Source of the DNA: Acarospora socialis
Lineage: Eukaryota; Ascomycota; Lecanoromycetes; Acarosporales; Acarosporaceae
DNA: 64,000 bases
Reading direction: 5' to 3'
Assembly (NCBI GenBank): GCA_025617375.2
Contig: JAMYGW020000005.1
Span: 1,488,001-1,552,000, forward strand
Below the pieces are notes generated by a model, which was given only the letters and a program-made list of their open reading frames with translations, searched no databases and had not been told where the DNA came from. Shown one piece after another: positions 17,951 through 64,000 of the stretch (position 1 is its first letter; each line of letters starts with the position of its first letter). Both the position numbers and the translations under genes were made by a program.

Positions 17951-17976
17951 AACGTGTGGAGTTCGCGGCCGACCAC

Positions 17977-30411: not shown

Positions 30412-30418
30412 TACCTTA

Positions 30419-39229: not shown

Positions 39230-39669
39230 GATGACGACATATGTTGCATGCATTCCGTCAAGGAATCGGTCGTTGAAGAGGAACTACACACTTGTGAAGT
39301 GCGAAACCCCCAAGGTTCAGTGGCTCCTTAATAGGCAGCGTTATCGTCGTTTGCAGATGTTTCTCACGTTGGCACAGAAGGTGTGTCAAAGCATAGCACG
39401 GCCGTTAATGCTACTTGTTTGTGTTTTCACAAACATAATGGACCGTATGGTATCGTGTAGTATAGACACGCCGTCACCATATACCCAAATTGATTACATG
39501 AACTTAGATGTATAGGTCGGAGACTGAGAGGGTAGTGACTCCAAGTCTCCGTCTCCTCACAGCAGATTGATTAGGACTGTGGTGAGATATTGTCTACTTA
39601 TGGTCTGACTCTTCACATTACTTCCATTCTGATTGCAGACACATCAATAGATAATGTTGTTGTGAAGAG
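39230..39669. other. Transition from gene block to AT-rich block
   Basis: The 3' flank of AP-3 delta keeps normal composition to about 39,540. Over a few hundred bases the sequence then becomes strongly AT-rich and CG-poor. No gene is supported from here to the window end apart from element ORFs. Confidence 0.6.
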
Positions 39670-39671
39670 TA

Positions 39672-39735
39672 AGAGTATGGGTCATAACTCATGGGACACT
39701 CGAGAAATTTTCAAATTTTCTATGTCAAATTCACT
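39672..39735. repeat. Left terminal inverted repeat
   Basis: Left end of the TA-flanked element, less mutated than the right end; it keeps GG and CG dinucleotides that read GA or CA/TA in the partner repeat. Confidence 0.72.
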
Positions 39736-41071: not shown

Positions 41072-41135
41072 AGTGAATTTGACATAGAAAATTTGAAAAT
41101 TTCTTTGATATCTCATGACTTATGACTCATACTCT
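41072..41135. repeat. Right terminal inverted repeat
   Basis: Right end of the same element. Its inner half (CATAGAAAATTTGAAAATTT) pairs perfectly with the left repeat, while the outer half carries the transitions. Confidence 0.72.
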
Positions 41136-41137
41136 TA

Positions 41138-41969
41138 GATATTGATATCTTAGTTTATAACTTACTGATGTAACAAATTACTAAAATCATTCTTAACTCA
41201 ACAATTTATCATCTGTTTCATCTCTAAATGCTATATGCACATAGTGTAAAGTGAAAGAAGAATAATATTTTCTAAGCTATAAAATCAGCTAAATATAGAT
41301 AAAAAGTAAGCTTCATAGTAAGATAAACTATATATTGTCAGTAATTTAGTCAGTGACATCATGAACAACTTTGTCAGCAACTTTACTGACAACTTTTAGT
41401 CACTAGTCATAACAGTCTGTCAGCAAAGCAAATAAAATGATGTTTTGTTATTAAGTTTTATCTCTATAGTGATATGAATTTTTATACATTGTTCTACAGC
41501 AAAACTGCTTTCATATTTGTTCTGTTGTTGTATTCAAAGTCTTTTACTAGTTGTTGTGTGTGCTCAAGATTGTTTATGTTGATTTAACTGTTAAATTTTG
41601 ATTTATATTTCATTCAGTGTATCAAGTATTTTGTGATATAGTCACAATTTTTTTAATAGATGCACTTTTGTAATAAATGTTCAAGTTCTCATTTGAGTTT
41701 TGCATCAGATGATGTGACAATGATATTAAGATGTTTTGATTGAGAATATCAATATGAATTGTTTGTAAAAGCTGATTCAAGATGTAAAACAAAATTGACA
41801 TCATGAATTTATCATGATACAGATAGATTAAAACAATAAACTAATTGTCTTACTCATTTGATAATACACAATAAGTTAACAAATTACTATTCTAACTTCT
41901 TGTTTTGAATGTCTAACAGAGTATAATCACAGTATAGTCATAAGTTGATTATATCATCAGTCTGAAAAA
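41138..41969. other. AT-rich, CC/CG-depleted sequence
   Basis: Between the TA-flanked element and the recognisable part of the gypsy fossil. I see no coding signal. It may include the decayed 3' end of that fossil. Confidence 0.4.
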
Positions 41970-44900
41970 ATTATGACATGTAAGTCTGATTATAGTAATA
42001 TTTTAACTGCATAACTGTAAAGACAATTGCATCTTTGACATTAATGTAAGCAGATTTATATTGATTTATGATGACTAATTTGACATATTTTAACAATCTT
42101 ACTTCAATAACATCAAAACAGTGAGACAGAGACTGTTTAACATTATTAATGATTAAATCAGATAACTTTGACAAAGATTGTGCTGAGTAAGCATTCATTT
42201 TGATGATATTAAGTTTGTTAACACATACTAAATCAAGAACATTGTGCATATGAAACTTAAAGAGAATTTGATTCAAACTTAAATTTGTGAAACTGTATTT
42301 TATCAAGTTGTTTAAGACTGTCTGTAGATGCAGTAAGATCATTGATTATTTATTTAATTATTTCAATATAGTGAGTCAGTAACATAGAATAATCTTTGTG
42401 ATCTGATTAGTAACTTTGAAACTATTATTAGTTTGTGAATAATAAATTGTTAAAAACAATAAGTCAACATGAAGCTGTCTGAAAAGTTCTTTTTATAAAG
42501 CAGCTATAAATTTTCTGTTGTGATCAGATAGAATAGTTTTCAGTAAGTTTTAATTTAATAAGATAAAACAATTCATTAAATATATAACTCAATCTTTTAT
42601 CACCATGATCTTTCATTTTAATATAAAGATAATAGCTTTACTGAACTTGTTGATGACAGATAGAATGATGTTGTAGTTATTAAATAATAATGAAGTTGAT
42701 AATGTCAGAATGAAATTAACTGTGAAAACATGAAAGAATCACAGTGATATAAGAATTGACTGCATCAATCTGTACAAATAATATTGTGATGTTTGCATAA
42801 GCTGATACTGTGAACAGTTTCAAATAAACTTATAAAGATGTTTGAATTAATCTGAGAAATATAAACTATTTATAAAACATTCATGCATATATACATAGTC
42901 TGAGTACTTCATAAAGTCATGAATCAAAGCAAAAACTTCTTTATATAAATATGAAGATATACATAACTGATAGTTCTTTTCTATATTTTTATAGTAAATA
43001 AGATCTTGTATTTAAGCATATAATAACATAGTGACATTGATATTAAGAACATTGTTTTGCTCAATCATATTGACAATTTGCTGTCAGTGAGATTTGAAGA
43101 CATAACTGTGAAGTACACATTGTTGAAATTTGAATGACATTTTAACAAAACTATTCACATAAATAAATACAGTGACAAATTCATGTAAAGTGTTGAGACT
43201 GAATTTGTCAAATTCAGATTGATACTCACAGCTGACTAGATAAAATAAAGTGTTTAATACAATATTTATCTTGTTAGATTTGTATTGAACATTTAGATAA
43301 AAGCACTGTAGATGTTTGAAAGTGTATATTAGATGTAGATTCAGTTTTTCAATATGAATGATGTTGAAACTTAATTGATGAATAATGAATACTGCAACAA
43401 AATAATCAGTGTAAATTATTGTAGTCTGCTTGATCATCTCAATCATGTAACAAACTTTCTTAATTATTCATACTGTTAAGAAGTGCAGTGTTCTAGCTGC
43501 TTTTATAGTCTTAGTTAAGACTAATATCAGAGATTACTCATTATTCATATAGTCTGCATGACAGAGTATGTGAATAGATAATCTTTACAATTCACATCAA
43601 TCATAGTCAAATTGATGATGTACATTTCACTAAATAAACAGTTAGTCAGCAGTATAATATGAGTAGTCTTTTATCTTTTAATAAATTTAATACATACAAT
43701 ATCTACAACTTCAAGTTCTGTAAATTAGTATTGTGTTTTAATGTCAGTAAAAAGACAACTAAGAAAGAAAATAAATTTTGTGTTCTTCTGATTGAATAAT
43801 GTGATAGATGAGTCATGATTAAATAATAATGTTGAGTTTGATCTTATTATTGTAGTAACTGTTGTGAAATTGTTAATTGATGACTTTCACAATTTTATGT
43901 GATAAATATAAACATCAAAATCAAATTTCTTCAAGACATCAAGATCAATATAAAGCTAATATTTAGAGTTAAAATAACTAAGTATTGTGAATCTTAAAAA
44001 CAATATTTGCAACTGATGAAAAGCATTTAACTTTTTAAGTATGAATTCAGCTATACTGATATGATCAGCAAATTTCTTTTACTTGTTTTTATTATAAATT
44101 ACATTTTTATCATAATCTTGTCAAAGATGTTGATTCAGAAGCATTTTGTGTAGTTGAAATGATTTGATGATTACAGTGTAATGAGATATATACTAACACA
44201 AATAATTAATCATATCTAGATACTTTTTTAGCTGAGTAAGAATACATGAAAAATCAAGACTAATAATGACAGCAAGCTTTGCTTTCACAGTAACAAGTCT
44301 CAATACATTGTCTCACTGATTTAGAAGTTATATCAAAGAATATTCTAAAAAGAACTTCTCAAATATTAAACAGATTTCTTTAGAAATTAAATTATCAAAT
44401 ACTTGTTGAAGATGAAGTATATGTTCTGTTAATACAACAAAATATATAATAATGTTGTCAACATAAGTACAGAAATACTTACAGTGTAATTATAATATTT
44501 AATCAGTTATTCACTGCACATAAACAGATGTGTTTCTATAATCTATAACAGCTATCTTGAAAATTTTCTGATTATAATATGAAACAATAGTTGAATGATG
44601 TTGATGCTCTAAATTAATGCATTATTAATAGAAATAGACACTACAATTTATCATGAATATGTATTTAACCATTTTAAATAACTACAAGAATATCTGTCTG
44701 TGAAGACATTGAATAGATATTTAACAGATTAATTTTGTTGAGAACTCTGATATTAATGATAATGTAACTTTTCTGTATGTTATTCAATAAAATACATCAT
44801 ACAACAAAGTACAAAAACAAAAACAAAGTCAATTTGAATATTTATTTCATGCAATCTTGATCATGAAGTTTGTCAAAGACTTTATTAACAATAACTTGAT

Positions 44901-45382
44901 CATTAACATCTAGTAAATATACTCTGATCTGATCAGATTTGTATTTTTTCTTTTAGTTGTTTAGAAAAAAATATATTCATTCATTTTTTTCCAGATATGT
45001 TGATGATATTATTGTGATTTTCTTATAGATGTAAATAGTTATAAACAATGATTTTAATTTAAGTGATAACTTTGTGATCATCATATATTATAATGCTGTT
45101 GTCTAGCTTGCATTTCATGAATCTGTTCATACTAGTATGAAAAATGACAACAGCAGCTAATACATTTTAAATAACAGTTTGAATTTATTCTTGATGACAT
45201 TAAGTCAAAAATACTAATACTACATCATCAGTGAAGATCAGATAACAGTCATCAGCTTTGTATTTGATGACTTGTTTCATTTGAAATTTTTGAGAAATAA
45301 TCAATGAAATGTTGTTGTCATATTGTATGTGTATCTTCAACATTATATGATTAACAATGTGCACATACACTGCTGCATTCAC
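41970..45382 (-). mobile_element. Ty3/gypsy LTR retrotransposon fossil
   Basis: A heavily decayed Ty3/gypsy element on the minus strand. In translation I recognise remnants in the canonical order: reverse transcriptase at about 44,250-44,560, an RNase H and connection segment at about 43,090-43,440, and an integrase-region remnant at about 41,970-42,350. The RNase H part is the clearest match to fungal gypsy polyproteins. It is broken many times over (dozens of lesions) and I could not define its LTRs. It must be old relative to the LINEs beside it, given its much stronger AT bias. The limits given are those of the recognisable core. Confidence 0.62.
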
Positions 45383-46165
45383 ATATTAACAATTAAACTC
45401 AAATAGAAAGTTATGATGTTGAGACAGCTTAAATTGAATAATGATAATTGTGAAATTATTTTGAAACAATATAATAATATATTGCTCAGCACTAATCAGA
45501 ATAACAGTATTCATCTGAGAAACTTCTTTTGTATAATGTTAACAAATCTACACAACAGTCATTTGATCAGCAATGACTTATGAAGCATATGTTTGACACA
45601 TATCTGTTAAGAATCATCACATAAAGAAAGTCATCAATGCAATTAAGATTATTCAGTTCAAATGTCTTCATATGATTGTTAACACTTATCAAACTACTTT
45701 AATCAGTACTCTGAAAATTAAGATCTATATTTTTTTTCTTGATTTATATTTAAATGATAAAATGCAAATCTATGCTGCTCATACAAAGAACACAGTCTGT
45801 ACAAAAATGAAAAACAAGATCTGCAGTTTTATCAGAAAAAGAATTAAATGAAAAGTCTGTTGATTCATGATGACTATAATAGTTATTCATTTCTTGATAA
45901 AACTAATGAAGAGAATTAGCTTAAAGAAAATAATACAAAATGTATAAACTCAAAAATAATATAACACTGATCAGAAAGAAAAGATTAAAAGATAAGATCA
46001 AGTTATTGAATTACTTTTTAAAAAAGTTCTTCAGCTTTATTAAAAACTGAGAAAGATTGAAAGTTCAGAATTGATTTAGTTTTGTATAAAATGTGTTAAT
46101 TATAATTACTTTCTTTACAAGATTAAGATTTTTGAAATTTTCTATGTTAACTACTTGTATAATAA
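45383..46165. other. AT-rich sequence between gypsy fossil and SINE
   Basis: Strongly AT-rich with almost no CC, GG or CG. It may belong to the gag end of the gypsy fossil. Nothing else is recognisable. Confidence 0.4.
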
Positions 46166-46383
46166 GGGTGGTTGCGTGATATAGTGAACAGTTTATCATG
46201 CTGGTAGTCTTTTTAATTTAAGTGAAAATTCATGAAAGTAGTGACCTCAATTGAATTTCTCACTTAAATTATAAGATTGTGAGTTCAAATTCCACACCTT
46301 TCACATACATTATTCACCAAGCTGTTCAGTTGTATAAGAGAAACAAGTGATGAAAATTCTACAGATCATAGTTGTCTATAGAA
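46166..46383 (+). mobile_element. tRNA-related SINE-like repeat, copy A
   Basis: A 218-bp repeat whose first 139 bp resemble a tRNA with a long insertion in the anticodon loop, followed by a non-tRNA tail. It matches copy B (53444-53661) along its whole length in inverted orientation. In this copy the polymerase III A box reads TGATATAGTGA and the B box GAGTTCAAATTCC, both damaged by G-to-A or C-to-T changes relative to copy B. The tail begins ACATTATTCACCAAGC and ends GTTGTCTATAGAA. It has no A-rich tail of its own. It lies just outside the 3' end of the left LINE. Confidence 0.65.
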
Positions 46384-46609
46384 GACACTATACACACAAT
46401 CATTTATCTATTATTATTTATATTTATTTATTCTTCATTCTATGCATGCAGCTATAAAAGCTATGGCAGTTAATAGACATATAGTGAAAGATGTAGACAC
46501 AAAACAAAACTCAAAATCTTGTACATGTGAATAATCAATCTGAATGCTTTTTGATCACTTCTGTTCAGTCAATCTGATGCTGATTGTCAATCAATATCTT
46601 TTTTCTTTT

Positions 46610-49600
46610 CTAAATCTCATCTTCACCCTCAACTTCTCCTAATAACCATTTTCTAGTAGCTACTTTGGTTTTCTTCAAAAACAGCAAAGTAGCTTTGATT
46701 CCTTCCTTGGTAGTAAACAGCACCTTTGCTGTATATGGCAAATTGATGTTTCTGAGCTGATTTTTCAGCTCAGTTTGCTCCTTTTTGTTATATTGACAGG
46801 CTGTCAACAAATGCTCTGGAGTTTGATCTTTGTTGCATGCACCATTGCATTTCTTGCTGTTATAGTCTGATAATCTATGCAGATGTGCTTTGAAATAGCC
46901 ATGACCTAGTTTCATTTGTGTGAAAGTAGCAAATGAAAGTCTGTCTGCACTTTTCAGATCTTCTTTGATGTGAAAACTAGGTGTTTGATCAAACTGAGCA
47001 TAGTATCTTTCTTGGGTTGTCTTTTTCCAGTGGGTGGTCCAGTTTTCCAGTGCTTTGGCCTTGATTTTGTGTTTGATATAGCTAATAGATGTAAATCTAT
47101 CAATATCTGGTGAAATTGACTGCTTTGCACCTGATTTTGCAGCTTTATCTGCTATTTCATTGTCTTTAATGTTCTCATGTTCAGGGACCCAATGAATATG
47201 AGGTGTAACTTCATAATCTATGAGTTTTTGAAGAGTTTCTTGACATTTAATAGCTAGATGCTGTTCAGATCCTTGATTTGTGGTTTGAATTCTTTGTATA
47301 GCTGCTTGATTGTCTGAAAAGATCCATATGTCTTTGATTCTTTGATATTTCATGATTTCTTTGAGACTTAACTTCAAAGACTGTGAAATTCCAAACAATT
47401 CAGCATCATAGACTTCCATGGTGGTTCCTAGATTTCAAGATTGTTGATGTATAATATCTTTATACATGTAGCAAAGACCTGCACCTAGATTTTCATCTAG
47501 TTTTGACCCATCTGTGTACAAAACAGCATTTTTAAACTTGGTTTCCTTAGAGAAAAGTGTTTCTAGTCTCTTTAGATGTTCCAAAGTAGCTAGTTTCTTG
47601 TCAGATTTGCTGATTTGAATGTCTATGTTTGGTGAAACACTTCAAGGTGCACAGCATAACTCATTTTGAGTTGAAACCTCCAAATTTAGTGTTTCTGGTA
47701 GATATTTGCAAATGCTATATAGCACTTTAATCAACTGAGTTGGGTGTTTCTTCTTAATGAGAGAGTTTGAATGTTGATTCCAGTCAAGATACTGATTTTC
47801 ATCAATATCACATCCAGTTCCAAGTCCTGGTGGGTAGGTGTATGGAGTTCTTTGTCTAATTGGATGATTTTCTGACAAAGTAGCTATTCTTAAAGCATAT
47901 AGCTCTGTTTTTTGATCAAGTCTAAATCTGGGTGATAATATAGCTGATTCTAGCTCCATAGCAGCTGATGGTGAAGACCTAAATGCACCTAGAATTTTTC
48001 TAGTTGCTGAATTTTGAAGTTTTTGAAACAGCTTTTCAAAATTCTTTTGTTGTTTTCACCATACTGGGCTTCCATAGTCACTTATAGATGTGATGCAGAC
48101 TGTGTACAGCTGTTTTCCAGCTGATGTTGATAAACCCCATTCAGAATTCATCAGTCTATGTAGTAAATGCAATGTTCTAGTTGCAGAAGCTATTTTCTTT
48201 TGCACATGTGTCTTAAAAGACATTTTAGTGTCAAACCAAACACCTAGCCAGCATACAACTTTAGAAGGATGTATAACAGTGTTATTTGGTAGTTTTACTG
48301 TTGATATAGCTTGATTTTCTTTCTGAAAATGGATGAGTTCTGACTTGCTGTCATCAAATATAACTGCATTTTCTTCAGCTCATTGAAATGCAGTTTTTGT
48401 GACTGATTCTAGTGTTTTGCTGTTGTCTGCAGCTGTTTTTCCTTCCACAATAATAGTCACATCATCAATATAGCTTGGTAGCTTTAGTTGAGTGTGTTTA
48501 TTGTTGATTTTTGTGAATAGAAATCGCATATAGATCAAAAATAGCATTGGTGATATAGGTGATCCTTGTGGAATTCCAGAATTGACACTTTGTGGGTGAT
48601 TTTTTTCACCATCAAAAGCTAGAGCAATTGTTCTATTTGTAAGAAAGCATTGCACCCATTTTAGTACAGTTTGTGGTAAATGTAGTCTTTTCATGACTTT
48701 TAGCAGTTGATTTAAAGACACATAGTTAAATGCACCCTTAACATCCAAGAATAAAGCTGTCAAGACTTTGTTGTTATTGATTGCTTGTTGAATGTCATGT
48801 GTTAAACACATAGCTGCATCCACAGCTGATCTTTGCTTTCTACCACCCATTTGCTCATGATATAGCAAGTCTGTGGTTTCAGCCCAATAGGAAAGTCTTG
48901 TTGCCATTATCTTTTCAGATATTTTGCCCAAGCAATTTAGTAGAGTGATTGGTCTATATGCTTTGGGTATTGAGTAGTCTGCTTTGCCTTCTTTTCTCAG
49001 AATTGCACCAGTTTCTTGATGCCAGCATACTGGATGATAGCCTTGATTTATTAAAACTGAATAAACAGTGTGAAATAACTCAGATATAGCTTGATATGCA
49101 TGTTGAATTATCAAAAAGGACAATCCATCTGGCTCAGGTGCTTTCTTTGTTGATGAAGTCATAATAGCTTGTTTTATTTCCTTAGAAATGACTGAAAACC
49201 ATGATTTTGTGAGACTATTATCACATTCTAGCTCAACTGGACTTGTTTGAGGTGGTTTTGGAAACATAGCTTCAAGAAACAAGTCACATTTGTCTTTAAA
49301 TATGAGTCCCACTTTGTTTTCATGCTTTATAGGAGGTGTTTTCTCTATTTTTCGTGGTTTAGTGTAATGATATGCTGTAAAAACATCTTTTCCAGCTGCA
49401 CCTTGCAGAAAAGTAGTCCATGAGGTATGTTTGGCTTTCTGAATTGCGTGAAAGTATCTATTTCTTGCATTTCTGAATTGATTTCAGTTTTCTTGTGATT
49501 TGTGATGTTTCCAGTATCTTCTAAAACCACTCATTTCAGTTCTAAGTACTGATAATGATTCAGATCACCATACTTTGACTTTTGAACAAGGTTTTCTCTT

Positions 49601-50527
49601 TGGTATATGCTGATCTGCTGCATTTGCTATCAGATTTCTGAGAGAAATAGTCATTTCTTCTAGATTTTGATCTGATAGATGTTGCATTAAGCTTTGAATT
49701 TGAACACTGGTTTGTACTGAGTTTATTTGCAGAGTTTCTGCAAATTTAACCCAGTCTGCTTTGTCTATATTGTATGATGCACTCAGTGGACTTTCAACCC
49801 ATTCAGACTCATTTGCAGTTATTTGAAACTGAATAACTTCATGGTCTGATTCAGACTTCATGTCTTGATTTACTTGTCAATTTCTGATGAAATTGCAAAG
49901 TAAGAGTGTTGCAAAAGTCAAATCAATCACTGATGTGGCATTTCCTGAGTGATGTGTATAGGTGTTTATGTCTGGTGTATTTAATAGCTCACAGTTGTGA
50001 ATTTTCAACCACTTTATTAAAGAAGTAGCTCTTATAGAGTTTTCTATTGATGAATTCCACCATGCATGATGTGCATTAAAATCCCCACAGATAATAGCTC
50101 TTTGTGGTAGTTGAATTGCTGTTAAACATCTGTCTATGGTCCATTGATCATTGTTGATTTGCTGTGACTTTTCATTGTATATGTTAAGTAACAGTATACT
50201 AGAAATTCCATTTGCTGAAATACTGAGTATTTGCAAATCTGAGTCTTTTGACAAGTCAGGTCTTGGTATACACACTAAATCTTGTTTAGTTTTAGACACA
50301 AATGCCATAGTTCTAGGTCTAATATCTAGATTAGATGTGGGTATCAAACTAGTAAAAGATGAATGTGAAATAGTGATTTTGTTGTCTCTTGCAACCCATG
50401 ATTCTTGAAGAAGAACTATGTCTGCAGTTTTTGTAGCTGAATTCAGACATGAGTACATGACATTCATAGATCTTGCGCAGTTGTGTTGTAGAATGGTGAT
50501 TTGTGATGAATTTGTTGTGTTATTCAT
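46610..50527 (-). pseudogene. LINE copy 1 ORF2: endonuclease, reverse transcriptase, RNase H
   Basis: One continuous frame of 1305 codons interrupted only by seven TGA codons: 49877, 49565, 49484, 48380, 48056, 47642 and 47435 (low coordinates), each where copy 2 or the context has Trp. Parts, with positions in the frame: an AP-like endonuclease at about residues 10-230 (ITILQHNC, IICGDFNAHH); reverse transcriptase near 400-750 (AYRPITLLNCLGK, FLDVKGAFNYV, GIPQGSPISP, SYIDDVTI); RNase H near 1000-1130 (WIFSDNQAAIQ, HWVPEHENIKDNEIADKAAK). A C-terminal Cys/His cluster follows (CNGACNKDQTPEHLLTAC). Unless TGA is read through, the protein would be truncated at the first site. Confidence 0.9.
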
Positions 50528-52113
50528 GACATTTTCATAGATAGTGGATCTGCTGTTGAAGAAATAGACTGTAGTGCTTTGAAAACACTGCATTCTGCAC
50601 TATTTGCTTGATGTTTCTCACCACAATTGCTGCATTTATAGACTATATGTGCACAAGTGGTTCCTTTTGACTGTGTGGGACAAAGAAAACAGCCATGTTC
50701 TCTAGTATTGTGATTTCCCGCACAGAATTGACATGTGTCTTGATTTTTACATACTTTTTGAGTATGTTCAAACTTTTGACACTTTCTGCATTGATCTGTT
50801 GGTTTGCAAGTGTTGTAGACTGCAGTTCTAACTGATGTTCCAGCAATTATCAGTCTGTTTCTGAGTGCTTTTTGAGCTTCTTGTTCTGATTTGACTGTCA
50901 AGACAATAGATGCATGCTGTTTTTCCTGTCTGGCTTCTTCTGAAGTAAGCCAGCGTGGTAAAATAGCTAGTTTGATATCTTTGTTGAAGGTTTCTACTTC
51001 ATCTTTGACTAGTTGCATGTCTTCTTTGCCGTTGAAAATAGCTGTGAGAATTCCATGTGCTACTATTTTGTACCACTTTTCATCCTTTTTGATTTCTATG
51101 AATTCAGATGATGAATTCCAGATTTGTTGATGTTTTAGCAAGTCTTCTGCTGTGCCTTCACTGGTTGTGAGCACTATACTAGCTTTGAATTGTGAAATAG
51201 CAACTGTGGAAACCAGCAAATTGTCTATTTTTGCTGTTTTAAGTGCGTTGTTGATTTTGTTGCGCATGTCTATGGCATTGATAGTAGTTGTGGGTGTTTT
51301 TGACTTTATAACTAGACATCTTTCTCTGAAAGTAATGGGTTTATCCACTACTTTTGACTTTGGTGCTTTTTTTTGAACAGTTGTCCATGAGTTTTGAGCA
51401 TTTTGATCTTTGCTGCTTGCAATTGATGCATATGTTGCTGATTTCACTGTTTTTGTTGATGTTGGCTGTCCAAAGCTGGTTTTGTTTGTCTGTACAAAGT
51501 TGATAGGGTTTGTTTTGTTTGTCTGAAAGACAAATGCTGGTTTCTCTGTGGTTTCTGACTTTGTCTTAGACATTGTGTGAAGAATTTTGTCTAGTTTGAT
51601 GTTGACTTCATCTTTGAAGCTGTCTAGTTGTTGTTGAACATCTAGTTTCTGATGAAATGTCTCATCTAACTGTTTGAGTGAGTCTAGATTTGCATTTTGT
51701 CTTGCTTGATCCAGTGTCTTGATGCTAGTTTCTAGTTCTTGTTGAACTATGGGGTTTGTGAATTGCTGAATAGCTTGCTTGAGGTAGTTTCTGGCTTGTT
51801 GAAGTAGTTTGTCACCATTTTGACTTTTTGGGTGTAGGTTTGTGCAGTTTGCATGATGAGTTTCATGCTGATTTGGTTCTTCATCAGAAGAAATAGCTTC
51901 TAGCACTGGACTGGCAATGGCTCTTCTCTTTTTAGACTTTAGAATAGTCTTTTGAGAAGGTTTCATGGTGATTTGTGATCCCAACAGGTCTGGTGAACTC
52001 ATAAAGAGTTGTGGAAGTGCTGTTTTTGGTGATTTTTGTTGTTTTGTAGGTGTTTTTGGGTTTTCTAGGTTGAAATCTTGCATGAAGTTGCTGGAATCCA
52101 GTGCAAAAGTCAT
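50524..52113 (-). CDS. LINE copy 1 ORF1: nucleic-acid binding, CCHC zinc knuckles
   Basis: An uninterrupted 529-codon frame. The N half is Lys/Gln/Ser-rich with a likely coiled coil (about residues 100-190). The C half resembles an RRM-like nucleic-acid binding region and ends with three Cys/His clusters: CRKCQKFEHTQKVC (C-x2-C-x4-H-x4-C), CQFCAGNHNTREHGC and CSNCGEKHQANSAEC. This is the gag-like RNP protein of the LINE, expected to coat its RNA. Its stop TGA overlaps the ORF2 start in the sequence ATGA (50527-50524), which suggests coupled termination-reinitiation. Confidence 0.9.
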   Translation of the reverse strand: MTFALDSSNFMQDFNLENPKTPTKQQKSPKTALPQLFMSSPDLLGSQITMKPSQKTILKSKKRRAIASPVLEAISSDEEPNQHETHHANCTNLHPKSQNGDKLLQQARNYLKQAIQQFTNPIVQQELETSIKTLDQARQNANLDSLKQLDETFHQKLDVQQQLDSFKDEVNIKLDKILHTMSKTKSETTEKPAFVFQTNKTNPINFVQTNKTSFGQPTSTKTVKSATYASIASSKDQNAQNSWTTVQKKAPKSKVVDKPITFRERCLVIKSKTPTTTINAIDMRNKINNALKTAKIDNLLVSTVAISQFKASIVLTTSEGTAEDLLKHQQIWNSSSEFIEIKKDEKWYKIVAHGILTAIFNGKEDMQLVKDEVETFNKDIKLAILPRWLTSEEARQEKQHASIVLTVKSEQEAQKALRNRLIIAGTSVRTAVYNTCKPTDQCRKCQKFEHTQKVCKNQDTCQFCAGNHNTREHGCFLCPTQSKGTTCAHIVYKCSNCGEKHQANSAECSVFKALQSISSTADPLSMKMS

Positions 52114-53425
52114 GATATGAGGTGTTTTTGGGGTCCGTCCTGTCCAAATCCAAAATCCTATCCAAATCCAGGTTCAGAAGGTCTATGTCTAGCAGTAATT
52201 ATCTAGTTTTTGAAGGTAAAAACTAGATTTTCCTGAGGTTCTAGATTATAGAAGCTTTGGATCCTTATTTCATCTAGAATAGGCTGTACCCAATTGCCTA
52301 ATTCAGATGTTGCTTAATATCCCAATTCACCTAGAGTAGATAAACTCTACAATAGACTTTTACCAGCTCTACTATAAGCAAGACTATACTATAAGTCACT
52401 CAACCACTAGGTCTTGGGGCAGATGCATCTAGGGCAAGATTTCCATGTGAAGCCTCATATTTATATCCCAACTACTCAGACAACATTGTTTGCCAGTCTG
52501 AGCTTTTACCAGCAGGTAGGGCTAGAAAATAGCTACCTGCTTATACCCTTCACTAGGTCTTTGTGAGATGCTTCTAGTGTAGAGTATGTCTTTACTGGTA
52601 GGTTCTTTCTGCACACAAAACGCTAATCAATTGACAGAAGAAATGCTCAAATTCCAGCTAAATCCGTCAAGAAATGGCTATTTTGCGGCTAGTTTTTGCG
52701 GAAACTGCGTGCAGTTGCTGGAATTGAGCGATTTGGTGTAATTCAGCCTGTAACGCTTAGAAATTCGACCTGAAACGCTGGTTTTTGGGCGAAAATAGCT
52801 GAAAAGTAGTCGATTTTGTTGATAAAATAGCTTGTTTTGATGGTGGAGCTATGTAGGTATGTTGTATGATGTGTGAATTGATGTGGCTTGGTGTGTATAG
52901 GCTGGAATTGCTGCGTAGTTGGCGTAAAAGTGGTGTTTTTGGTGTTTTCTTGGTTGTTTTGGTGTTTTTGGTGTTTTGGTGTGAGTGAGGCTTAGTTGAG
53001 GTATCTGGTGATGCTTGGTGCGCAGAAATTCTGCCAAGCAAGCTAGGAAAATTAAGCGAAAATTTGCGAACTTCAAAAGCTAGATACTAAGGGGTACAAC
53101 TAAACAGTCCAACAACTTTGTGAGCAATAAAGATATCAAAAAGCAGTAATAGTATGAATTTTAGAAGAGGTCAAGGTCAAGAAAACTGTTGATTCAGAAT
53201 TTTCAAAGATGCGTTGGTTGTGGCGATGTTGATGTCTGAGATGTTGTTTTGAGTTTTGGCTGGAGGTATGCGAAAAATTTTCACTGAATGATAATTGAGG
53301 TACCCCACCACCAGTATTAATGATGAAGATAAGCTGTTTTGAGGGTTTATAGAAGTGAATGAGGCAAAGAATTTGCACTATTCAGAATTTTGATAGCTGC
53401 TTTAGTTGTGGTTCTGTGGTTTTGA
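52114..53425 (-). other. 5' leader of LINE copy 1
   Basis: About 1.3 kb of leader upstream of ORF1. It is the inverted counterpart of 54,115-55,398, with somewhat more differences than the ORFs. It holds no long conserved frame. An internal promoter is expected here for a LINE, but none is recognisable. Confidence 0.6.
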
Positions 53426-53443
53426 TTTATAACTGTGAAGTGG

Positions 53444-53661
53444 TTCTATAGACAACTATGATCTGTAGAATTTTCATCACTTGTTTTTCTTATACAACTG
53501 AACAGCTTGGTGAATAATGTATGTGGGAGGTGTGGGATTTGAACCCACAATCTTATAATTTAAGTGAGAAATTCAATTGGGGTCACTACTTTCATGAATT
53601 TTCACTTAAATTAAAAAGACTACCAGCATGATAAACTGTCCACTATACCATGCAACCACCC
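53444..53661 (-). mobile_element. tRNA-related SINE-like repeat, copy B
   Basis: The better-preserved copy. Read on the minus strand, it starts GGGTGGTTGCATGG. A polymerase III A box, TGGTATAGTGG, fits TRGYNNARNNG. A B box, GGTTCAAATCC, sits in a perfect T-arm (GTGGG/CCCAC), and the 3' end ACCTCCC pairs with the 5' GGGTGGT at six of seven positions. CATG pairs with CATG as D stem. The anticodon stem is not closed in the usual way: instead, an insertion forms a roughly 20-bp hairpin (AATTTAAGTGA arms). The non-tRNA tail covers 53522-53444. No canonical tRNA can be folded, so I call it tRNA-derived. Confidence 0.68.
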
Positions 53662-54114
53662 AAGTTAACATTCTGTTTATCAGAGAATTTTTGTTGATTT
53701 AGTCATTTCTTTGATTAATTTGACTGCTTCAATGTCATCATCATGCAGTGTTGTCAACTTGCTAATGAGATTCTTCTTGAACTGTGAATTCATAATTCTC
53801 AAAAGTGTTCAATGTGACTCAAATGAAGAAGAATGTAATTCAGGCTGAATGTTCAGCTGAATATTTAACTGAATATTCAGTTTAAACTGCACAATGCTTG
53901 ACATACATGTGACTTGACATATCTGCATGCAGTCACACATCACTTGTCTCTTAACTTATATTGCATAATGTTTTTGTCATCATGTCAGATGCCATCAGTC
54001 AAGATAAATACTGTTAGAGCAATGATGTTTGTTTGTTGTCTTATTGCAGTTGTCTTCATTCTGATTACTATGAAATTCTGAGAACATTTACTCATCAGAA
54101 CTTGAAGAGTTTTT
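53662..54114. other. AT-rich spacer between SINE copy B and LINE copy 2
   Basis: About 450 bp of AT-rich sequence at the centre of the inverted LINE pair. It has no counterpart elsewhere in the window that I can see and no coding signal. Confidence 0.45.
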
Positions 54115-55398
54115 TGAAAATCACAGAATCACAATCAAACCAGCTATCAAAATTCTGAATAGAGCAAATTCTTTGTCTTATTCACTTTCATAAATTCTCA
54201 AAACAGCTTATCTTCATCATCAATACTGGTGGTGAGGGATCTCAATTACCATTCTCTCAAAATTTTTTGCATACCTCCTTCCAAAAAACCAAAACAACAT
54301 TTTGAACATCAACATCACCACAACCAACACATCTTCAAAAATTCTGAATCAACAGTTTTCTTCACCTTGATCTCTTCTAAAATTCATACTATTACTGCTT
54401 TTTGATATCTTTATTGCTCACAAAGTTGTTGGACTGTTTAGTTGTACCCCTTAGTATCTAGTTTTTGAAGTTTGCAAATTTTCACTTAATTTTTCTAGCT
54501 TGCTTGACAGAATTTCTGCACACCAAGCATCATCAGATACCTCAACTAAGTCTTACTCACACCAAAACACCAAAAACACCACTTTTACGTCAACTACGCA
54601 GCAATTCCAGCCTATACACACCAAGCCACATCAATTCATGCATCATACAACATATCTACATAGCTCTACCATCAAAACAAGCTATTTTATCAACAAAATC
54701 AACTACCTTTCAGCTATTTTCGCTCAAAAATCAGCGTTTCAGGTCAAATTTCTAAGCATTACAGGCTGAATTACACCAAATCGCTCAATTCCAGCAACTG
54801 CACGCAGTTTCCGCAAAAACTAGCCGCAAAATAGCCATTTCTTGACGAATTTAGCTGGAATTTGAGCATTTCTTCTGTCAATTGATTAGTGTTTTGCATG
54901 CAGAAAGAACCTACCAGTAAAGACATACTCTACACTAGAAGCATCTCACAAAGACCTAGTGAAGAGTATAAGCAGGTAGCTATTTTCTAGCCCTACCTGC
55001 TGATAAAAGCTCAGACTGGCAAACAATGTTGTCTGAGTAGTTGAAATATAAATATGAGACTTCACATGAAAATCTTGCCCTAGATGCATCTGTCTCAAGA
55101 CCTAGTGGTTGAGTGACTTATAGTATAGTCTTGCTTATAGTAGAGCTGGTAAAAGCCTATTGTAGAGTTTATCTACTCTAGGTGAATTGGGATATTAAGC
55201 AACATCTGGATTAGACAATTGGGTACAGCCTATTCTAGATGAAATAAGGATCCAAAGCTTCTATAATCTAGAACCTCAGGAAAATCTAGTTTTTACCTTC
55301 AAAAACTAGATAATTACTGCTAGACATAGACCTTCTGGACCTGGATTTGGATAGAATTTTGGATTTGGACAGGACGGACCCCAAAAACACCTCATATC

Positions 55399-56988
55399 AT
55401 GACTTTTGCACTGGATTCCAGCAACTTCATGCAAGATTTCAACCTAGAAAACCCAAAAACACCTACAAAACAACAAAAATCACCAAAAACAGCACTTCCA
55501 CAACTCTTTATGAGTTCACCAGACCTGTTGGGATCACAAATCACCATGAAACCTTCTCAAAAGACTATTCTAAAGTCTAAAAAGAGAAGAGTCATTGCCA
55601 GTTCAGTGCTAGAAGCTATTTCTTCTGATGAAGAACCAAATCAGCATGAAACTCATCATGCAAACTGCACAAACCTACACCCAAAAAGTCAAAATGGTGA
55701 CAAACTACTTCAACAAGCCAGAAACTACCTCAAGCAAGCTATTCAGCAATTCACAAACCCCATAGTTCAACAAGAACTAGAAACTAGCATCAAGACACTG
55801 GATCAAGCAAGACAAAATGCAAATCTAGACTCACTCAAACAGTTAGATGAGGCATTTCATCAGAAACTAGATGTTCAACAACAACTAGACAGCTTCAAAG
55901 ATGAAGTCAACATCAAACTAGACAAAATTCTTCACACAATGTCTAAGACAAAGTCAGAAACCACAGAGAAATCAGCATTTGTCTTTCAGACAAACAAAAC
56001 AAACCCTATCAACTTTGTACAGACAAACAAAACCAGCTTTGGACAGTCAACATCAACAAAAACAGTGAAATCAGCAACATATGCATCAATTGCAAGCAGC
56101 AAAGATCAAAATGCTCAAAACTCATGGACAACTGTTCAAAAAAAAGCACCAAAGTCAAAAGTAGTGGATAAACCCATTACTTTCAGAGAAAGACGTCTAG
56201 TTATAAAGTCAAAAACACCCACAACTACTATCAATGCCATAGACATGCACAACAAAATCAACAACACACTTAAAACAGCAAAAATAGACAATTTGCTGGT
56301 TTCCACAGTTGCTATTTCACAATCCAAAGCTAGTATAGTGCTCACAACCAGTGAAGGCACAGCAGAAGACTTGCTAAAACATCAACAAATCTGAAATTCA
56401 TCATCTGAATTCATAGAAATCAAAAAGGATGAAAAGTGGTACAAAATAGTAGCACATGGAATTCCCACAGCTATTTTCAACGACAAAGAAGACATGCAAC
56501 TAGTCAAAGATGAAGTAGAAACCTTCAACAAAGATATCAAACTAGCTATTTTACCACGCTGACTTACTTCAGAAGAAGCCAGACAGGAAAAACAGCATGC
56601 ATCTATTGTCTTGACAGTCAAATCAGAACAAGAAGCTCAAAAAGCACTCAGAAACAGACTGATAATTGCTGGAACATCAGTTAGAACTGCAGTCTACAAC
56701 ACTTGCAAACCAACAGATCAATGCAGAAAGTGTCAAAAGTTTGAACATACTCAAAAAGTATGTAAAAATCAAGACACATGTCAATTCTGTGCGGGAAATC
56801 ACAATACTAGAGAACATGGCTGTTTTCTTTGTCCCACACAGTCAAAAGGAACCACTTGTGCACATATAGTCTATAAATGCAGCAATTGTGGTGAGAAACA
56901 TCAAGCAAATAGTGCAGAATGCAGTGTTTTCAAAGCACTACAGTCTATTTCTTCAACAGCAGATCCACTATCTATGAAAATGTCATGA
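55399..56988 (+). pseudogene. LINE copy 2 ORF1: CCHC zinc-knuckle protein
   Basis: Counterpart of the intact ORF1 of copy 1, 529 codons long. Two TGA codons, at 56392 and 56560, replace Trp codons that are TGG in copy 1 (contexts QQI-W-NSS and LPR-W-LTS). No frameshift and no other stop. The three C-terminal Cys/His clusters are intact. The stop TGA 56986-56988 overlaps the ORF2 ATG at 56985. Confidence 0.9.
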
Positions 56989-59900
56989 ATAACACAACAA
57001 ATTCATCACAAATCACCATTCTACAACACAACTGCACAAGATCTATGAATGTCATGTACTCATGTCTGAATTCAGCTACAAAAACTGCAGACATAGTTCT
57101 TCTTCAAGAACCATGGGTTGCAAGAGACAACAAAACCACTATTTCACATCCATCTTTTACTAGTTTGATACCCACATCTAATCTAGATATTAGACCTAGA
57201 ACTATGGCATTTGTGTCTAAAACTAAACAAGATTTAGTGTGTATACCAAGACCTGACTTGTCAAAAGACTCAGATTTGCAAATACTCAGTATTTCAGCAA
57301 ATGGAATTTCTAGTATACTGTTACTTAACATATACAATGAAAAGTCACAGCAAATCAACAATGATCAATGAACCATAGACAGATGTTTAACAGCAATTCA
57401 ACTACCACAAAGAGCTATTATCTGTGGGGATTTTAATGCACATCATGCATGGTGAAATTCATCAATAGAAAACTCTATAAGAGCTACTTCTTTAATAAAG
57501 TGGTTGAAAATTCACAACTGTGAGCTATTAAATACACCAGACATAAACACCTATACACATCACTCAGGAAATGCCACATCAGTGATTGATTTGACTTTTG
57601 CAACACTCTTACTTTGCAATTTCATCAGAAATTGGCAAGTAAATCAAGACATGGAGTCTGGATCAGACCATGAAGTTATTCAGTTTCAAATAACTGCAAA
57701 TGAGTCTGAATGAGTTGAAAGTCCACTGAGTGCATCATACAATATAGACAAAGCAGACTGGGTTAAATTTGCAGAAACTCTGCAAATAAACTCAGTACAA
57801 ACCAGTGTTCAAATTCAAAGCTTAATGCAACATCTATCAGATCAAAATCTAGAAGAAATGACTATTTCTCTCAGAAATCTGATAGCAAATGCAGCAGATC
57901 AGCATATACCAAAGAGAAAACCTTGTTCAAAAGCCAAAGTATGATGATCTGAATCATTATCAGTACTTAGAACTGAAATGAGTGGTTTTAGAAGATACTG
58001 GAAACATCACAAATCACAAGAAAACTGGAATCAATTCAGAAATGCAAGAAATAAATACTTTCACGCAATTCAGAAAGCCAAACATACCTTATGGACTACT
58101 TTTCTGCAAGGTGCAGCTGGAAAAGATGTTTTTACAGCATATCATTACACTAAACCACGAAAAATAGAGAAAACACCTCCTATAAAGCATGAAAACAAAG
58201 TGGGACTCATATTTAAAGACAAATGTGACTTGTTTCTTGAAGCTATGTTTCCAAAACCACCTCAAACAAGTCCAGTTGAGCTAGAATGTGATAATAGTCT
58301 CACAAAACCATGGTTTTCAGTCATTTCTAAGGAAATAAAACAAGCTATTATGACTTCATCAACAAAGAAAGCACCTGGGCCAGATGGATTGTCCTTTTTG
58401 ATAATTCAACATGCATATCAAGCTATATCTGAGTTATTTCACACTGTTTATTCAGTTTTAATAAATCAAGACTATCATTCAGTATGCTGGCGTCAAGGAA
58501 CTGGTGCAATTCTGAGAAAAGAAGGCAAAGCAGACTACTCAATACCCAAAGCATATAGACCAATCACTCTACTAAATTGCTTGGGCAAAATATCTGAAAA
58601 GATAATGGCAACAAGACTTTCCTATTGGGCTGAAACCACAGACTTGCTATATCATGAGCAAATGAGTGGTAGAAAGCAAAGATCAGCTGTGGATGCAGCT
58701 ATGTGTTTAACACATGACATTCAACAAGCAATCAATAACAACAAAGTCTTGACAGCTTTATTCTTGGATGTTAAGGGTGCATTTAACTATGTGTCTTTAA
58801 ATCAACTGCTAAAAGTCATGAAAAGACTACATTTACCACAAACTGTACTAAAATGGGTGCAATGCTTTCTTACAAATAGAACAATTGCTCTAGCTTTTGA
58901 TGGTGAAAAAAATCACCCACAAAGTGTCAATTCTGGAATTCCACAAGGATCACCTATATCACCAATGCTATTTTTGATCTATATGCGATTTCTATTCACA
59001 AAAATCAACAATAAACACACTCAACTAAAGCTACCAAGCTATATTGATGATGTGACTATTATTGTGGAAGAAAAAACAGCTGCAGACAACAGCAAAACAC
59101 TAGAATCAGTCACAAAAACTGCATTTCAATGAGCTGAAGAAAATGCAGTTATATTTGATGACAGCAAGTCAGAACTCATCTATTTTCAGAAAGGAAATCA
59201 AGCTATATCAACAGTAAAACTACCAAATAACACTGTTATACATCCTTCTAAAGTTGTATGCTGGCTAGGTGTTTGGTTTGACACTAAAATGTCTTTTAAG
59301 ACACATGTGCAAAAGAAAATAGCTTCTGCAACTAGAACATTGCATTTACTACATAGACTGATGAATTCTGAATGGGGTTTATCAACATCAGCTGGAAAAC
59401 AGCTGTACACAGCCTGCATCACATCTATAAGTGACTATGGAAGCCCAGTATGGTGGAAACAACAAAAGAATTTTGAAAAGCTGTTTCAAAAACTTCAAAA
59501 TTCAGCAACTAGAAAAATTCTAGGTGCATTTAGGTCTTCACCATCAGCTGCTATGGAGCTAGAATCAGCTATATTACCACCCAGATTTAGACTTGATCAA
59601 AAAACAGAGCTATATGCTTTAAGAATAGCTACTTTGTCAGAAAATCATCCAATTAGACAAAGAACTCCATACACCTACCCACCAGGACTTGGAACTGGAT
59701 GTGATATTGATGAAAATCAGTATCTTGACTGAAATCAACATTCAAACTCTCTCATTAAGAAGAAACACCCAACTCAGTTGATTAAAGTGCTATATAGCAT
59801 TTGCAAATATCTACCAGAAACACTAAATTTGGAGATTTCAACTCAAAATGAGTTATGCTGTGCACCTTGGAGTGTTTCACCAAACATAGACATTCAAATC

Positions 59901-60902
59901 AGCAAATCTGACAAGAAACTAGCTACTTTGGAACATCTAAAGAGACTAGAAACACTTTTCTCTAAGGAAACCAAGTTTAAAAATGCTGTTTTGTACACAG
60001 ATGGGTCAAAACTAGATGAAAATCTAGGTGCAGGTCTTTGCTACATGTATAAAGATATTATACATCAACAATCTTGAAATCTAGGAACCACCACGGAAGT
60101 CTATGATGCTGAATTGTTTGGAATTTCACAGTCTTTGAAGTTAAGTCTCAAAGAAATCATGAAATATCAAAGAATCAAAGACATATGGATCTTTTCAGAC
60201 AATCAAGCAGCTATACAAAGAATTCAAACCACAAATCAAGAATCTGGACAGCATCTAGCTATTAAATGTCAAGAAACTCTTCAAAAACTCATAGATTATG
60301 AAGTTACACCTCATATTCATTGGGTCCCTGAACATGAGAACATTAAAGACAATGAAATAGCAGATAAAGCTGCAAAATCAGGTGCAAAGCAGTCAATTTC
60401 ACCAGATATTGATAGATTTACATCTATTAGCTATATCAAACACAAAATCAAGGCCAAAGCACTGGAAAACTGGACCACCCACTGGAAAAAGACAACCCAA
60501 GGAAGATACTATGCTCAGTTTGATCAAACACCTAGTTTTCACATCAAAGAAGATCTGAAAAGTGCAGACAGACTTTCATTTGCTACTTTTACACAAATGA
60601 AACTAGATCATGACTATTTCAAAGCACATCTGCATAGATTACCAGACTATAACAGCAAGAAATGCAATGGTGCATGCAACAAAGATCAAACTCCAGAGCA
60701 TTTGTTGACAGCCTGTCAATATAACAAAAAGGAGCAAACTGAGCTGAAAAATCAGCTCAGAAACATCAATTTGCCATATACAGCAAAGGTGCTGTTTACT
60801 ACCAAGGAAGGAATCAAAGCTACTTTGCTGTTTTTGAAGAAAATCAAAGTAGCTACTAGAAAATGGTTATTAGGAGAAGTTGAGGGTGAAGATGAGATTT
60901 AG
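56985..60902 (+). pseudogene. LINE copy 2 ORF2: endonuclease, reverse transcriptase, RNase H
   Basis: One frame of 1305 codons with eight internal TGA codons: 57369, 57453, 57711, 57942, 57945, 59130, 59730 and 60075. Each aligns with Trp by context or by TGG in copy 1. Three of them (57945, 59130, 60075) are also TGA in copy 1. Domain order is as in copy 1; the RT catalytic box SYIDDV is near residue 684, and RNase H acidic motifs (YTDGSKLDE, SDNQAAIQ) lie near 1003 and 1070. No TAA, TAG or frameshift occurs. Confidence 0.9.
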
Positions 60903-61097
60903 AAAAGAAAAAAGATATTGATTGACAATCAGCATCAGGTTGACTGAACAGAAGTGATTAAAAAGTATTCAGATTGATTATTCACATGTACAAGATTTTG
61001 AGTTTTGTTTTGTGTCTACATCTTTCACTATATGTCTATTAACTGCCATAGCTTTTATAGCTGCATGCATAGAATGAAGAATAAATAAATAAATAAT

Positions 61098-62244
61098 ATT
61101 AACAATGTTAATTCAGTCTATTCAGACACTCATATTGATCACTATCTCTATTCTTCATATCTGTACAGAGATCATTAAGTTTAAAGACATAGACTATTTT
61201 GACTCTAAAATCTATCTCAAATCAATGATTTCAGACTCAGAAAACAGCTCTATAATTTATGACATCTTTTTATTTGTTAATTGTCTGAAGAAAATTGTCA
61301 CTCAAACATCAAATAAGTTTATACTCATCAAACTTAGTCTTCAAGACACTGCATTAAAATGATTTCATTTGAAACTTAGCTTCAGCAAACACTTCAAACT
61401 TCATACAATTAGTATGTGAAGTAAAGCTCTTACTCAGCAATTTGACTCTACAACAGCAGAAGCTATGATCACAATATTGAATAAGTACTACATCTGCAAC
61501 AACATCATCAATTGCTGCAAGTCTGCAGACTATATTCAGATCATAATTCATCATAATAAGATAGTCACACTGTCTACATCATTTTATCTCATAATTGTCT
61601 ATCAAAACATTAATTCTGAACTTCATCAAAATCTTTAAGATTTTACTGAGTCATCAGTATCATCATTTGTTAAGAACATGAAGATTAAGAAATTCATATG
61701 ATTTGATCTTTATGCATGACATTCATATTCTATGAATTTGTCATACTATACAAATTCACTATATCTGTTGAATCAATCTTCTTAATATTGACTCTTAAAT
61801 TCATCATATAATTAAGTAATAACAACATTGAATCAGTCTTCATACCAGTATGAATGAGACTTACAGCAACTGCACAAATTGTGAAATTACTGTAGTCACT
61901 ATGCTTCAGTTATCATACAAAATGAGTCTGTCAACAAGTTATGAGTTTACAATGCTGTCACTGACAATGTGAGAGTCATTGTCAATGATGTCTATGAGGT
62001 TTACTACTACAATTCACCTAATGATGCATACAAATCAGTCACAAAATGCTCTCACTGTTGCTTTCATTTCAACATCTATGACAAGTTTATAGAGCATATG
62101 CAAAGAGAAGAACACAAGACATAGAGATTTGCATACTAGTTAGCATGAGATTCTCTGATCACTGTGGTATTTGTTTTAGTGAATAGATATTGTGATGTGT
62201 TTTGCAATGAGAACATTGCTTTTTTTGTTTTGTTGTGAGCATAT
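61098..62244. other. AT-rich decayed sequence
   Basis: Strongly AT-rich, nearly free of CG and CC/GG. Small open frames (for example 61105-61362) show no family features. Probably older repeat remains beneath the LINE insertion. Confidence 0.4.
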
Positions 62245-62540
62245 TGTTATGATTAAACCCTAGGTCTTTGCTTACCTGACTGCTTACTCAGTCATGTCTA
62301 TTCACTTAAATCTTATATAACTTTCACACATAGCTTAAAGTAGAAGAACAAGAGACTTACACTTATACACTTGATCTAAATAGTCACAGCTTCAGTTCAC
62401 ATACTATTTACTATATAGCATTGAGCTCAATAGAACACTACTGAGAACTTAACTTCTCATTGTGAGTATTGCACTCTTAACACTTATGCTGTTCTGTTTA
62501 TATCTGAGATATAATCAGTAAATATTAAACAACAATAACA
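62245..62540. mobile_element. Possible LTR of a retrotransposon fossil
   Basis: A 296-bp segment with TGTTAT at its left end and ATAACA at its right end, the short inverted termini typical of LTRs, and a size usual for fungal gypsy LTRs. No second copy is visible in the window, no 5-bp flanking duplication is present, and no clear primer-binding site follows. Family assignment is therefore open, and the call is weak. Confidence 0.25.
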
Positions 62541-64000
62541 GTTCATTCATCTCATCACTCATTTCTTCTCTCTCAACTTTTTTCACATATTATTTTTTCA
62601 CTTCTGCAATTTATATCAGTTCAAATCAACAGTGATAGCATCATAAATTCAGACATGCAAACAGTATGTAATTTAATGATCAATTCTAATAATGATTTTA
62701 ATGCTAACAAGAATCAAAATACTTAATACATAACTGCACTCTAAGATTTTCATATCTGATCAGTTAAAACACAACAATTTTATTAATGAAGCAGACAATT
62801 CAGAAATCAATGCAGTTGTATATTTTAACACTTTGTTTTAACACTTAAATGATAATATACTGATTATTGTTGCAGCTTAAGTTGTTTTTCAAGAATATTA
62901 TAATGAGATTGAATATGAAGAGTGTTGTTGTCATTGATAACATTGTTGAGAATGATCTTAAGAAAAATGATGTTGAGAAAAATATTATTGAAAAAAACAG
63001 TGATAAGAACAATAATATTGAGAAGAACAGCAATACAAATATGTGTTTTAATACATCATTTTAAAGCTAAATTGATATTGATATACTGATAACTGTTAAA
63101 CTGAGTTATCTTCTTATAAAAGTGATGTGAATGATAACAATATGAGAGAAATTGACACAAAGATGTGTTTTAATGCAATAATTTAATGTCAGTTCAATTA
63201 CTATATTAATGAATAAAATATAAAGTTCTCATAACTCATCATCAAAGATTCATCAATTTAAGCAGACAAAATGAAAGTGCATCAGTTTCAAATTCTTAGC
63301 AAAGAAAAAGAAGTGATAAGTTAAGAGAGACTTCACATTATCATTATTTTTTGAAGTCAAAAATTTCTCATTAATTAAAGAATAACAGCAGAATTACTGT
63401 ATTACTGAAACAAAAGATCATTCATTGATGAATTTAAATTTTACTTCAAGTAAAACATCATCTAAGTATAGTATAAATTCTGCAATAACTCAGATCAGAG
63501 AGCAATGATAAATACTATTTAATAATTTCACAACAAATTAAATTAAACAAGTAAATATAGCAGATCAGAATACAAAACATGTTGTTTTAAAGAAACTGTA
63601 TGCATTTAATGATTAAAAATCAGCAACAAAGACTCAGCAAAAGATTCTGAAAGATGACACTGTTAATATATTAAAAGTTAAACATTATAATTTCAACATT
63701 TTCAGTAAATGTTTTCTGAATTCTAATAGTTAATTTTAATATTCATATTCTGATCTGCTTATAAAGAAATTTCTTATTAATCAAATTAAAATTGAAATGC
63801 ATTAATTACAGAGATAAATCAAAGTTCAGAAGAAAAAAGATTGTGTGATTCTGTTTAAAAAAGTTTATGTTAAATGAATAATTGAAGAATTCAGCAAAGT
63901 TGTTTCAATATTGATTTTTACTTCACTTAAACTAATATATTGTTGCAGATTGAATCTGAAAATGTTATGAGTAAGTTTGAAAAGATGTAAATTAATAATT
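62541..64000. other. AT-rich decayed sequence to window end
   Basis: No supported gene. Open frames of about 60 codons on both strands near 62,845-63,064 are AT-driven and Asn/Lys/Ile-rich or Phe/Leu-rich, as expected by chance. Confidence 0.4.

Follow-up and report, generated by a model that had tools for sequence, protein, structure and literature searches.

C-to-T mutation with a CpC/CpG preference in transposon-rich DNA of Acarospora socialis

Fungal C-to-T hypermutation has been described with CpA, CpT, CpG and TpCpG signatures (PMC4352252, PMC2621366, PMC5381629). Repeat-induced point mutation (RIP) in Neurospora and other Pezizomycotina involves RID/Masc1 and falls on CpA, in some species on CpT (PMC4352252), and a review gives CpT as the preference of DIM-2 (PMC13297926). 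A survey of the fungal kingdom published in 2025 presents the CpA preference as common to RIP-like defences (PMC12543289). A CpG-type bias is found in Microbotryum and the rusts, together with a Masc2-like DNMT1, and in Tuber, which has RID and Dim2 genes and a secondary CpA signature (PMC4352252). TpCpG hypermutation was reported in Microbotryum (PMC5381629), CpG mutation of repeats in Coccidioides immitis and a gain of CA and TG in Uncinocarpus reesii (PMC4014442, PMC7862722). For Rhizoctonia solani AG8, a whole-genome table gives one single nucleotide polymorphism (SNP) per 214 bp for CpC, 370 for CpG, 422 for CpA and 491 for CpT (PMC4014442). Here we analyzed a window of 64,000 nucleotides from Acarospora socialis (contig JAMYGW020000005.1, positions 1,488,001 to 1,552,000), in which the C-to-T changes of transposon-rich DNA fall on CpC and CpG (hereafter CpS) and nearly spare CpA and CpT (CpW). 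No report of CpC and CpG targeting with CpA spared was found among the literature matches listed, whose coverage left out most subscription papers as well as Clutterbuck 2011, Horns 2012, Neafsey 2010 and Sharpton 2009.

Sequence context of changes in the LINE and SINE pairs

The AT-rich part of the window (39.9-64 kb) houses two copies, A and B, of a long interspersed nuclear element (LINE) and two copies of a short one (SINE). The LINE copies form an inverted repeat with 99% identity across an ungapped arm of 6528 nt. Alignment of the reverse complement of 46402-53425 with 54115-61097 gave 6982 columns, with 118 transitions and 13 transversions; the base 3' of the altered C was C in 76 cases, G in 16, A in 19 and T in 7. 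We excluded the initial 270 columns, where the 5' ends have diverged further (25 transitions, 11 transversions), and the tail formed by the final 25 columns (2 transversions). This left 6701 columns with 93 transitions and zero transversions. Two double differences of adjacent bases (CA/TG) were counted as former CG, each being best read as one CG hit on opposite strands in A and B. C-to-T rates were 66/356 at CpC and 17/62 at CpG, 7/1128 at CpA and 3/906 at CpT, i.e. 83/418 at CpS vs 10/2034 at CpW, a rate about 40-fold higher (Fisher p = 2e-55). CpS sites account for 83 of the 93 changes where 16 are expected; the maximum in 20,000 random draws of 93 sites was 30. The preference noticed in the initial annotation is borne out and is stronger than inspection by eye could show, and the exceptions that it placed near 60,957-60,970 are two CpA changes of copy B, at 60,959 and 60,966; CpA is far from dominant. 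The SINE copies were also said to differ in this way, and they do: all 9 differences between 46166-46383 and 53444-53661 are transitions. CpS accounts for 8 of them; the ninth lies at ApG and reads as CpT on the opposite strand.

The LINE-pair rate is governed by the 3' neighbour, ranging from 0.003 to 0.27 according to this base. By the 5' neighbour it is near flat, at 0.028-0.048 (A 21/744, C 11/356, G 27/560, T 34/792). The changes fall on both strands, and both copies have been hit: excluding the CA/TG pairs, 29 CpS changes in columns 270-7000 are private to copy A and 50 to copy B. Within CpC the preceding base has an effect (GCC 17/50, TCC 26/107, CCC 8/51, ACC 15/148), ACC being slow compared with GCC and TCC together (43/157, p = 1e-4). 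The first C of CCC is seldom altered (2/51, vs 62/298 for CC before A or T; p = 0.003).

Two further observations were made on the LINE pair. In columns 270-1010 (54385-55096 of B and the matching part of A) all 24 CpS changes belong to B, and after column 1010 there are 26 in B and 29 in A (p = 1.5e-6 for a mosaic). Together with the first 270 columns, which hold 11 of the 13 transversions, this mosaic possibly reflects recombination, gene conversion or a switch of 5' untranslated region (UTR). Past column 2150 (about 56.2-61.1 kb), the CpS sites of copy B show 18 G-to-A vs 2 C-to-T changes (p = 0.001, one of four tests), which hints at a strand-processive episode; copy A shows no strand bias there (13 G-to-A, 11 C-to-T). 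When strand clustering was assessed by a runs test, p was 0.03 for copy B and 0.66 for copy A.

The window is laid out as follows (strand in brackets where there is one):

1..39500: gene block, used as internal control; 51.8% GC, no CC/GG/CG depletion
39550..39900: graded border from the gene block to saturated DNA, seen in CC/GG/CG counts per 50 bp
39900..46160: first saturated AT-rich block (AT1); 25.0% GC; CC 3, GG 0, CG 0
46166..46383 (+): SINE copy 1, of tRNA-like look; 9 differences to copy 2
46402..53425 (-): LINE copy A, with ORF1 and ORF2 (endonuclease, reverse transcriptase, RNase H)
53444..53661 (-): SINE copy 2, in opposite orientation to SINE copy 1
53662..54114: near-saturated spacer between the elements, 453 bp; CC 1, GG 1, CG 0
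54115..61097 (+): LINE copy B, in opposite orientation to copy A
61098..64000: second saturated AT-rich block (AT2); 27% GC; continues past the window end

Saturated AT-rich DNA and the gene block

The DNA flanking the elements shows the end state of the same context rule. Composition predicts about 86 CC, 110 GG and 97 CG in AT1 (39900-46160), and 3, 0 and 0 are present (odds 0.03/0/0); the GC dinucleotide is normal (105 vs 97 expected). AT2 (61100-64000) contains 5 CC, 3 GG and no CG (odds 0.08/0.07/0). CA odds are 1.52-1.59 and TA odds 0.73-0.77 over both blocks (1.52 and 0.77 in AT1). Two statements of the initial annotation, that CA/TG stays abundant and that C in the surrounding AT-rich DNA is almost never followed by C or G, agree with these values, the depletion being relative to composition. 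Surviving sites in AT2 are ACC in seven of eight cases and CCC in the other, and of the 13 CpC sites still present in the old blocks and the spacer, 9 are ACC (p = 0.001 relative to the share of ACC in the gene block). The slowness of ACC in the LINE pair and its abundance among the survivors of old DNA look as if one process were behind both.

The gene block is spared. Its CC/GG/CG odds are 0.94/0.91/0.95, and the poorest of the 500-bp windows examined in it still holds 57 CC/GG/CG (median 91). Between gene block and AT1 the change is graded over about 350 bp past the last gene: from 39501, CC/GG/CG counts per 50 bp are 8, 3, 2, 4, 1, 3, 0 and 1, and then 0 in 39901-40200. A Pfam scan of 40 open reading frames (ORFs) of the gene block, made up of 10 ORFs and of 30 out of another 51 stop-to-stop ORFs with 110 codons or more, identified FAA hydrolase, HSP20, WD40, Frag1, PRA1, DnaJ, Eisosome1, tyrosine phosphatase, SNF2/helicase and adaptin domains. 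The SNF2 ORF matched RAD5 and other SNF2 proteins in a PDB search, and the Eisosome1 protein had no relatives among the viral contigs searched. The Eisosome1 domain, of a fungal family, agrees with the fungal origin of the window.

The LINE and the SINE are each present in two copies; in the saturated flanks, the parts scanned gave no Pfam match and little repeat match. A six-frame Pfam scan of 39900-44101 and 61098-63999, with stops as X, had no match at E 0.1, and tblastx of the AT-rich pieces against LINE and SINE had none either. BLAST against the LINE returned one weak 69-bp match (E = 0.007). Among the AT-rich pieces themselves it returned one clear 82-bp inverted pair, the others being weak or self-complementary (E = 3e-5 to 0.004). 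The inverted pair (39670-39751 and 41056-41137, 82% identity) lies at the border of genes and AT-rich DNA; its internal differences are mixed and go beyond CpS, and it may mark the termini of a degraded DNA transposon.

Imprint on the LINE coding sequence

Three ORF pieces of LINE copy A match Pfam endonuclease (PF14529/PF03372), reverse transcriptase (PF00078) and RNase H (PF00075) families, and ORF1 has no Pfam match. We take the element to belong to a Tad-like clade. A PDB search with the reverse transcriptase matched LINE and R2 proteins; neither this protein nor ORF1 had relatives in the viral contigs, and the former had none in the genome contigs. SINE copy 1 contains no tRNA according to ARAGORN (bacterial code) and no Rfam match at gathering score; a stable fold is predicted for SINE copy 2 (z = -3.0). 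The SINE has a putative B-box motif, with CA in place of the CG of the tRNA consensus, as expected from the mutator.

Codons were counted on the union of copies A and B and compared with eight predicted host ORFs. Where a third position can be C or T without altering the amino acid, the LINE keeps C at 188/333 sites before A and 70/177 before T, and at only 18/155 before C and 4/167 before G. The host shows a mild gradient (67, 53, 46 and 48% before A, T, C and G; 379/566, 198/372, 278/603 and 409/847). At synonymous A/G third positions the same imprint is found: G amounts to 87/386 after A and 68/160 after T, vs 5/91 after G and 2/263 after C, the host values in this order being 441/762, 221/347, 216/421 and 328/680.

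The counts being made on the union of copies, these CpS losses are common to A and B and, by inference, predate their split. The LINE lineage, under protein selection, has shed CpS where the protein allows and retained much CpW; this loss at synonymous sites indicates that the mutator has long shaped the lineage. The CpC/GpG retained in the ORFs is partly due to Pro, Gly and Trp codons. Codon usage in ORF1/ORF2 (46610-52113, 55399-60902) is strongly skewed, with 55 AGA, one AGG and 7 CGN, no CCG or TCG, and one each of ACG and GCG. The sense strand is rich in A (0.379, vs 0.255 for T; union of copies).

Between the copies, the codons of the two ORFs differ at 1 synonymous and 42 nonsynonymous positions, and at a further 11 the change makes a stop. 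CpS sites are synonymous in 29/308 cases, so that about 5 of 54 changes would be expected to be synonymous; there is no synonymous excess, and most changes are thus post-insertion. After insertion, purifying selection has left no visible mark on the differences between the LINE copies. In-frame stops occur at 14 positions and are TGA throughout, with no TAA or TAG despite 123 CAA/CAG codons. Three of the 14, in ORF2, are common to both copies, at sites that resemble conserved Trp residues of LINE proteins. With 7 TGA in copy A and 10 in copy B out of about 39 Trp codons, about 1.8 would be shared by chance, so the three are compatible with independent recurrent hits; inheritance from a broken source and recoding are the alternatives.

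Explanations and comparison with known systems

We favour, as the probable explanation, a host C-to-T hypermutation acting on transposon-rich DNA and set by the 3' base, which alters CpC and CpG and nearly spares CpA and CpT. The affected DNA is transposon-rich and probably heterochromatic. C5-methyltransferases are set by the 3' neighbour of their target and AID/APOBEC enzymes by its 5' side; the 3'-neighbour rule therefore favours a process dependent on a C5-methyltransferase over an APOBEC-like deaminase. The writer would be a CpS-specific C5-cytosine methyltransferase of the DNMT1/RID/Dim-2/Masc2 type, which might deaminate directly, as proposed for RIP, or lay down 5-methylcytosine that deaminates. 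Its action would be slow and chronic, since the LINE lineage persisted long enough to lose its synonymous CpS. The term "RIP-like" used in the initial annotation can be kept for the C-to-T changes on both transposon strands and the sparing of the gene block; as to tempo, copies that are still 99% identical and LINE codons with a long-standing imprint speak for a slow chronic process and not for a Neurospora-like burst. A more specific proposal, to which we would give slightly less than an even chance, is a chronic defence methyltransferase mirroring RID, with CpS in place of the CpW of RID, which transposons survive by purging synonymous CpS and which evades the standard RIP indices.

Several results weigh against the favoured explanation. 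The effect of the preceding base seen at CpC does not show at CpG (GCG 8/26, TCG 3/10, ACG 6/19, CCG 0/7; few sites), which could mean two enzymes. The pressure is also uneven, since LINE copy A keeps CpC/GpG near expectation in its 5' UTR (0.84/1.08), with CpG at 0.43. The ACC enrichment of survivors is weaker on two other baselines (p = 0.03-0.04). Simulated CpS change of the gene block to saturation ends at 35% GC and TA odds of 0.42, vs 25% and 0.77 in AT1. Adding CpW change at LINE-pair rates gives 29% GC and 0.76, nearer to the observed 25-27% and 0.73-0.77, further steps give 26% and 0.86, and the same treatment applied to LINE sequence gives 27-31% GC; under these models a slow CpW component or an AT-richer start would be needed. 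By summed dinucleotide distance an unspecific loss of C fits AT1 slightly better (0.144 vs 0.161) and AT2 more poorly (0.175 vs 0.103), and under it CC/GG/CG odds would stay near 0.95, against observed values of about 0. Finally, no methyltransferase domain was found in the 40 ORFs that the Pfam scan covered in the gene block of this window.

The best surviving rival, though an unlikely one, is true RIP, in which a RID-type enzyme of altered specificity would act on duplicated DNA in bursts of the sexual cycle and spill into the flanks. Changes in duplicated elements on both strands, the spared gene block and the graded border suit it, as does the strand-processive look of copy B past column 2150. 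It fits poorly with copies still 99% alike, with the balanced strands of copy A, with a LINE lineage that lived long enough for its synonymous sites to be shaped, and with flanks that are not demonstrably repeats. Somewhat more doubtful is a pair of processes, CpG methylation and deamination (Masc2/DNMT5-like) plus a separate CpC activity. The preceding-base preference visible at CpC alone and the low CpG of the copy A 5' UTR argue for it; the similar rates of CpC and CpG in the same LINE copies (0.185 vs 0.274, p = 0.12) and their joint saturation argue against it, and the CpC/GpG kept in ORFs is partly explained by the Pro, Gly and Trp codons. We hold it very improbable that a cytidine deaminase of the AID/APOBEC kind edited LINE cDNA or exposed single strands: the A-rich sense strand and the G-to-A excess of copy B would agree with this, but the 3' neighbour decides and the 5' one hardly matters (the ranges given above led us to reject such editing), and big non-LINE blocks are saturated on both strands. 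That no directed process exists, the pattern coming from AT-rich drift, sequencing artefact or codon bias, can practically be dismissed: an AT-rich composition alone does lower CC/GG/CG, but not to the 3/0/0 of AT1 beside a normal GC count, nor does it yield the CpS share of the LINE pair or a synonymous C that varies with the first base of the next codon, and pure composition was rejected on these three sets of counts. Ultraviolet damage was rejected since TC remains abundant.

Published RIP index thresholds are 0.89 for TpA/ApT and 1.03 for (CpA+TpG)/(ApC+GpT) (PMC3828140). The 39.9-46.16 kb region scores 0.80 and 1.44, both on the "no RIP" side. Some studies score RIP by these two indices, and CpS mutation may thus escape notice elsewhere. 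If identified, the proposed methyltransferase would show how an enzyme of the DNMT1 type can change between CpW and CpS recognition, and the LINE codons suggest a transposon lineage that outlasts its mutator by losing targets where the protein permits.

The locus shares features with each of the described systems. With Rhizoctonia solani AG8 it has in common that CpC is the most frequent class, and that table is the nearest numerical hint; the spread there is about two-fold, genes are affected in addition to repeats, and its authors call it CpG-biased (PMC4014442). Coccidioides immitis and Uncinocarpus reesii are likewise ascomycetes with CpG loss or CA/TG gain, known here from brief statements in which CpC is unmentioned. 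TpCpG hypermutation in Microbotryum is also a RIP-like mutation alongside active transposons, but in Acarospora neither a T at -1 nor a G at +1 is required, TCG making up 3 of the 93 changes. The CpG-type bias of Microbotryum, the rusts and Tuber likewise targets CpG and enriches CA/TG; here, however, CpC contributes 66 of the 83 CpS changes and is saturated in the old blocks. Neurospora-type RIP has the same C-to-T changes on both strands of transposon DNA and the same AT-rich blocks beside intact genes, and differs in its target, CpA and CpT being nearly spared in Acarospora. RIP proper does not fit on account of CpA, and the process is best called a target-context variant of fungal RIP-like hypermutation.

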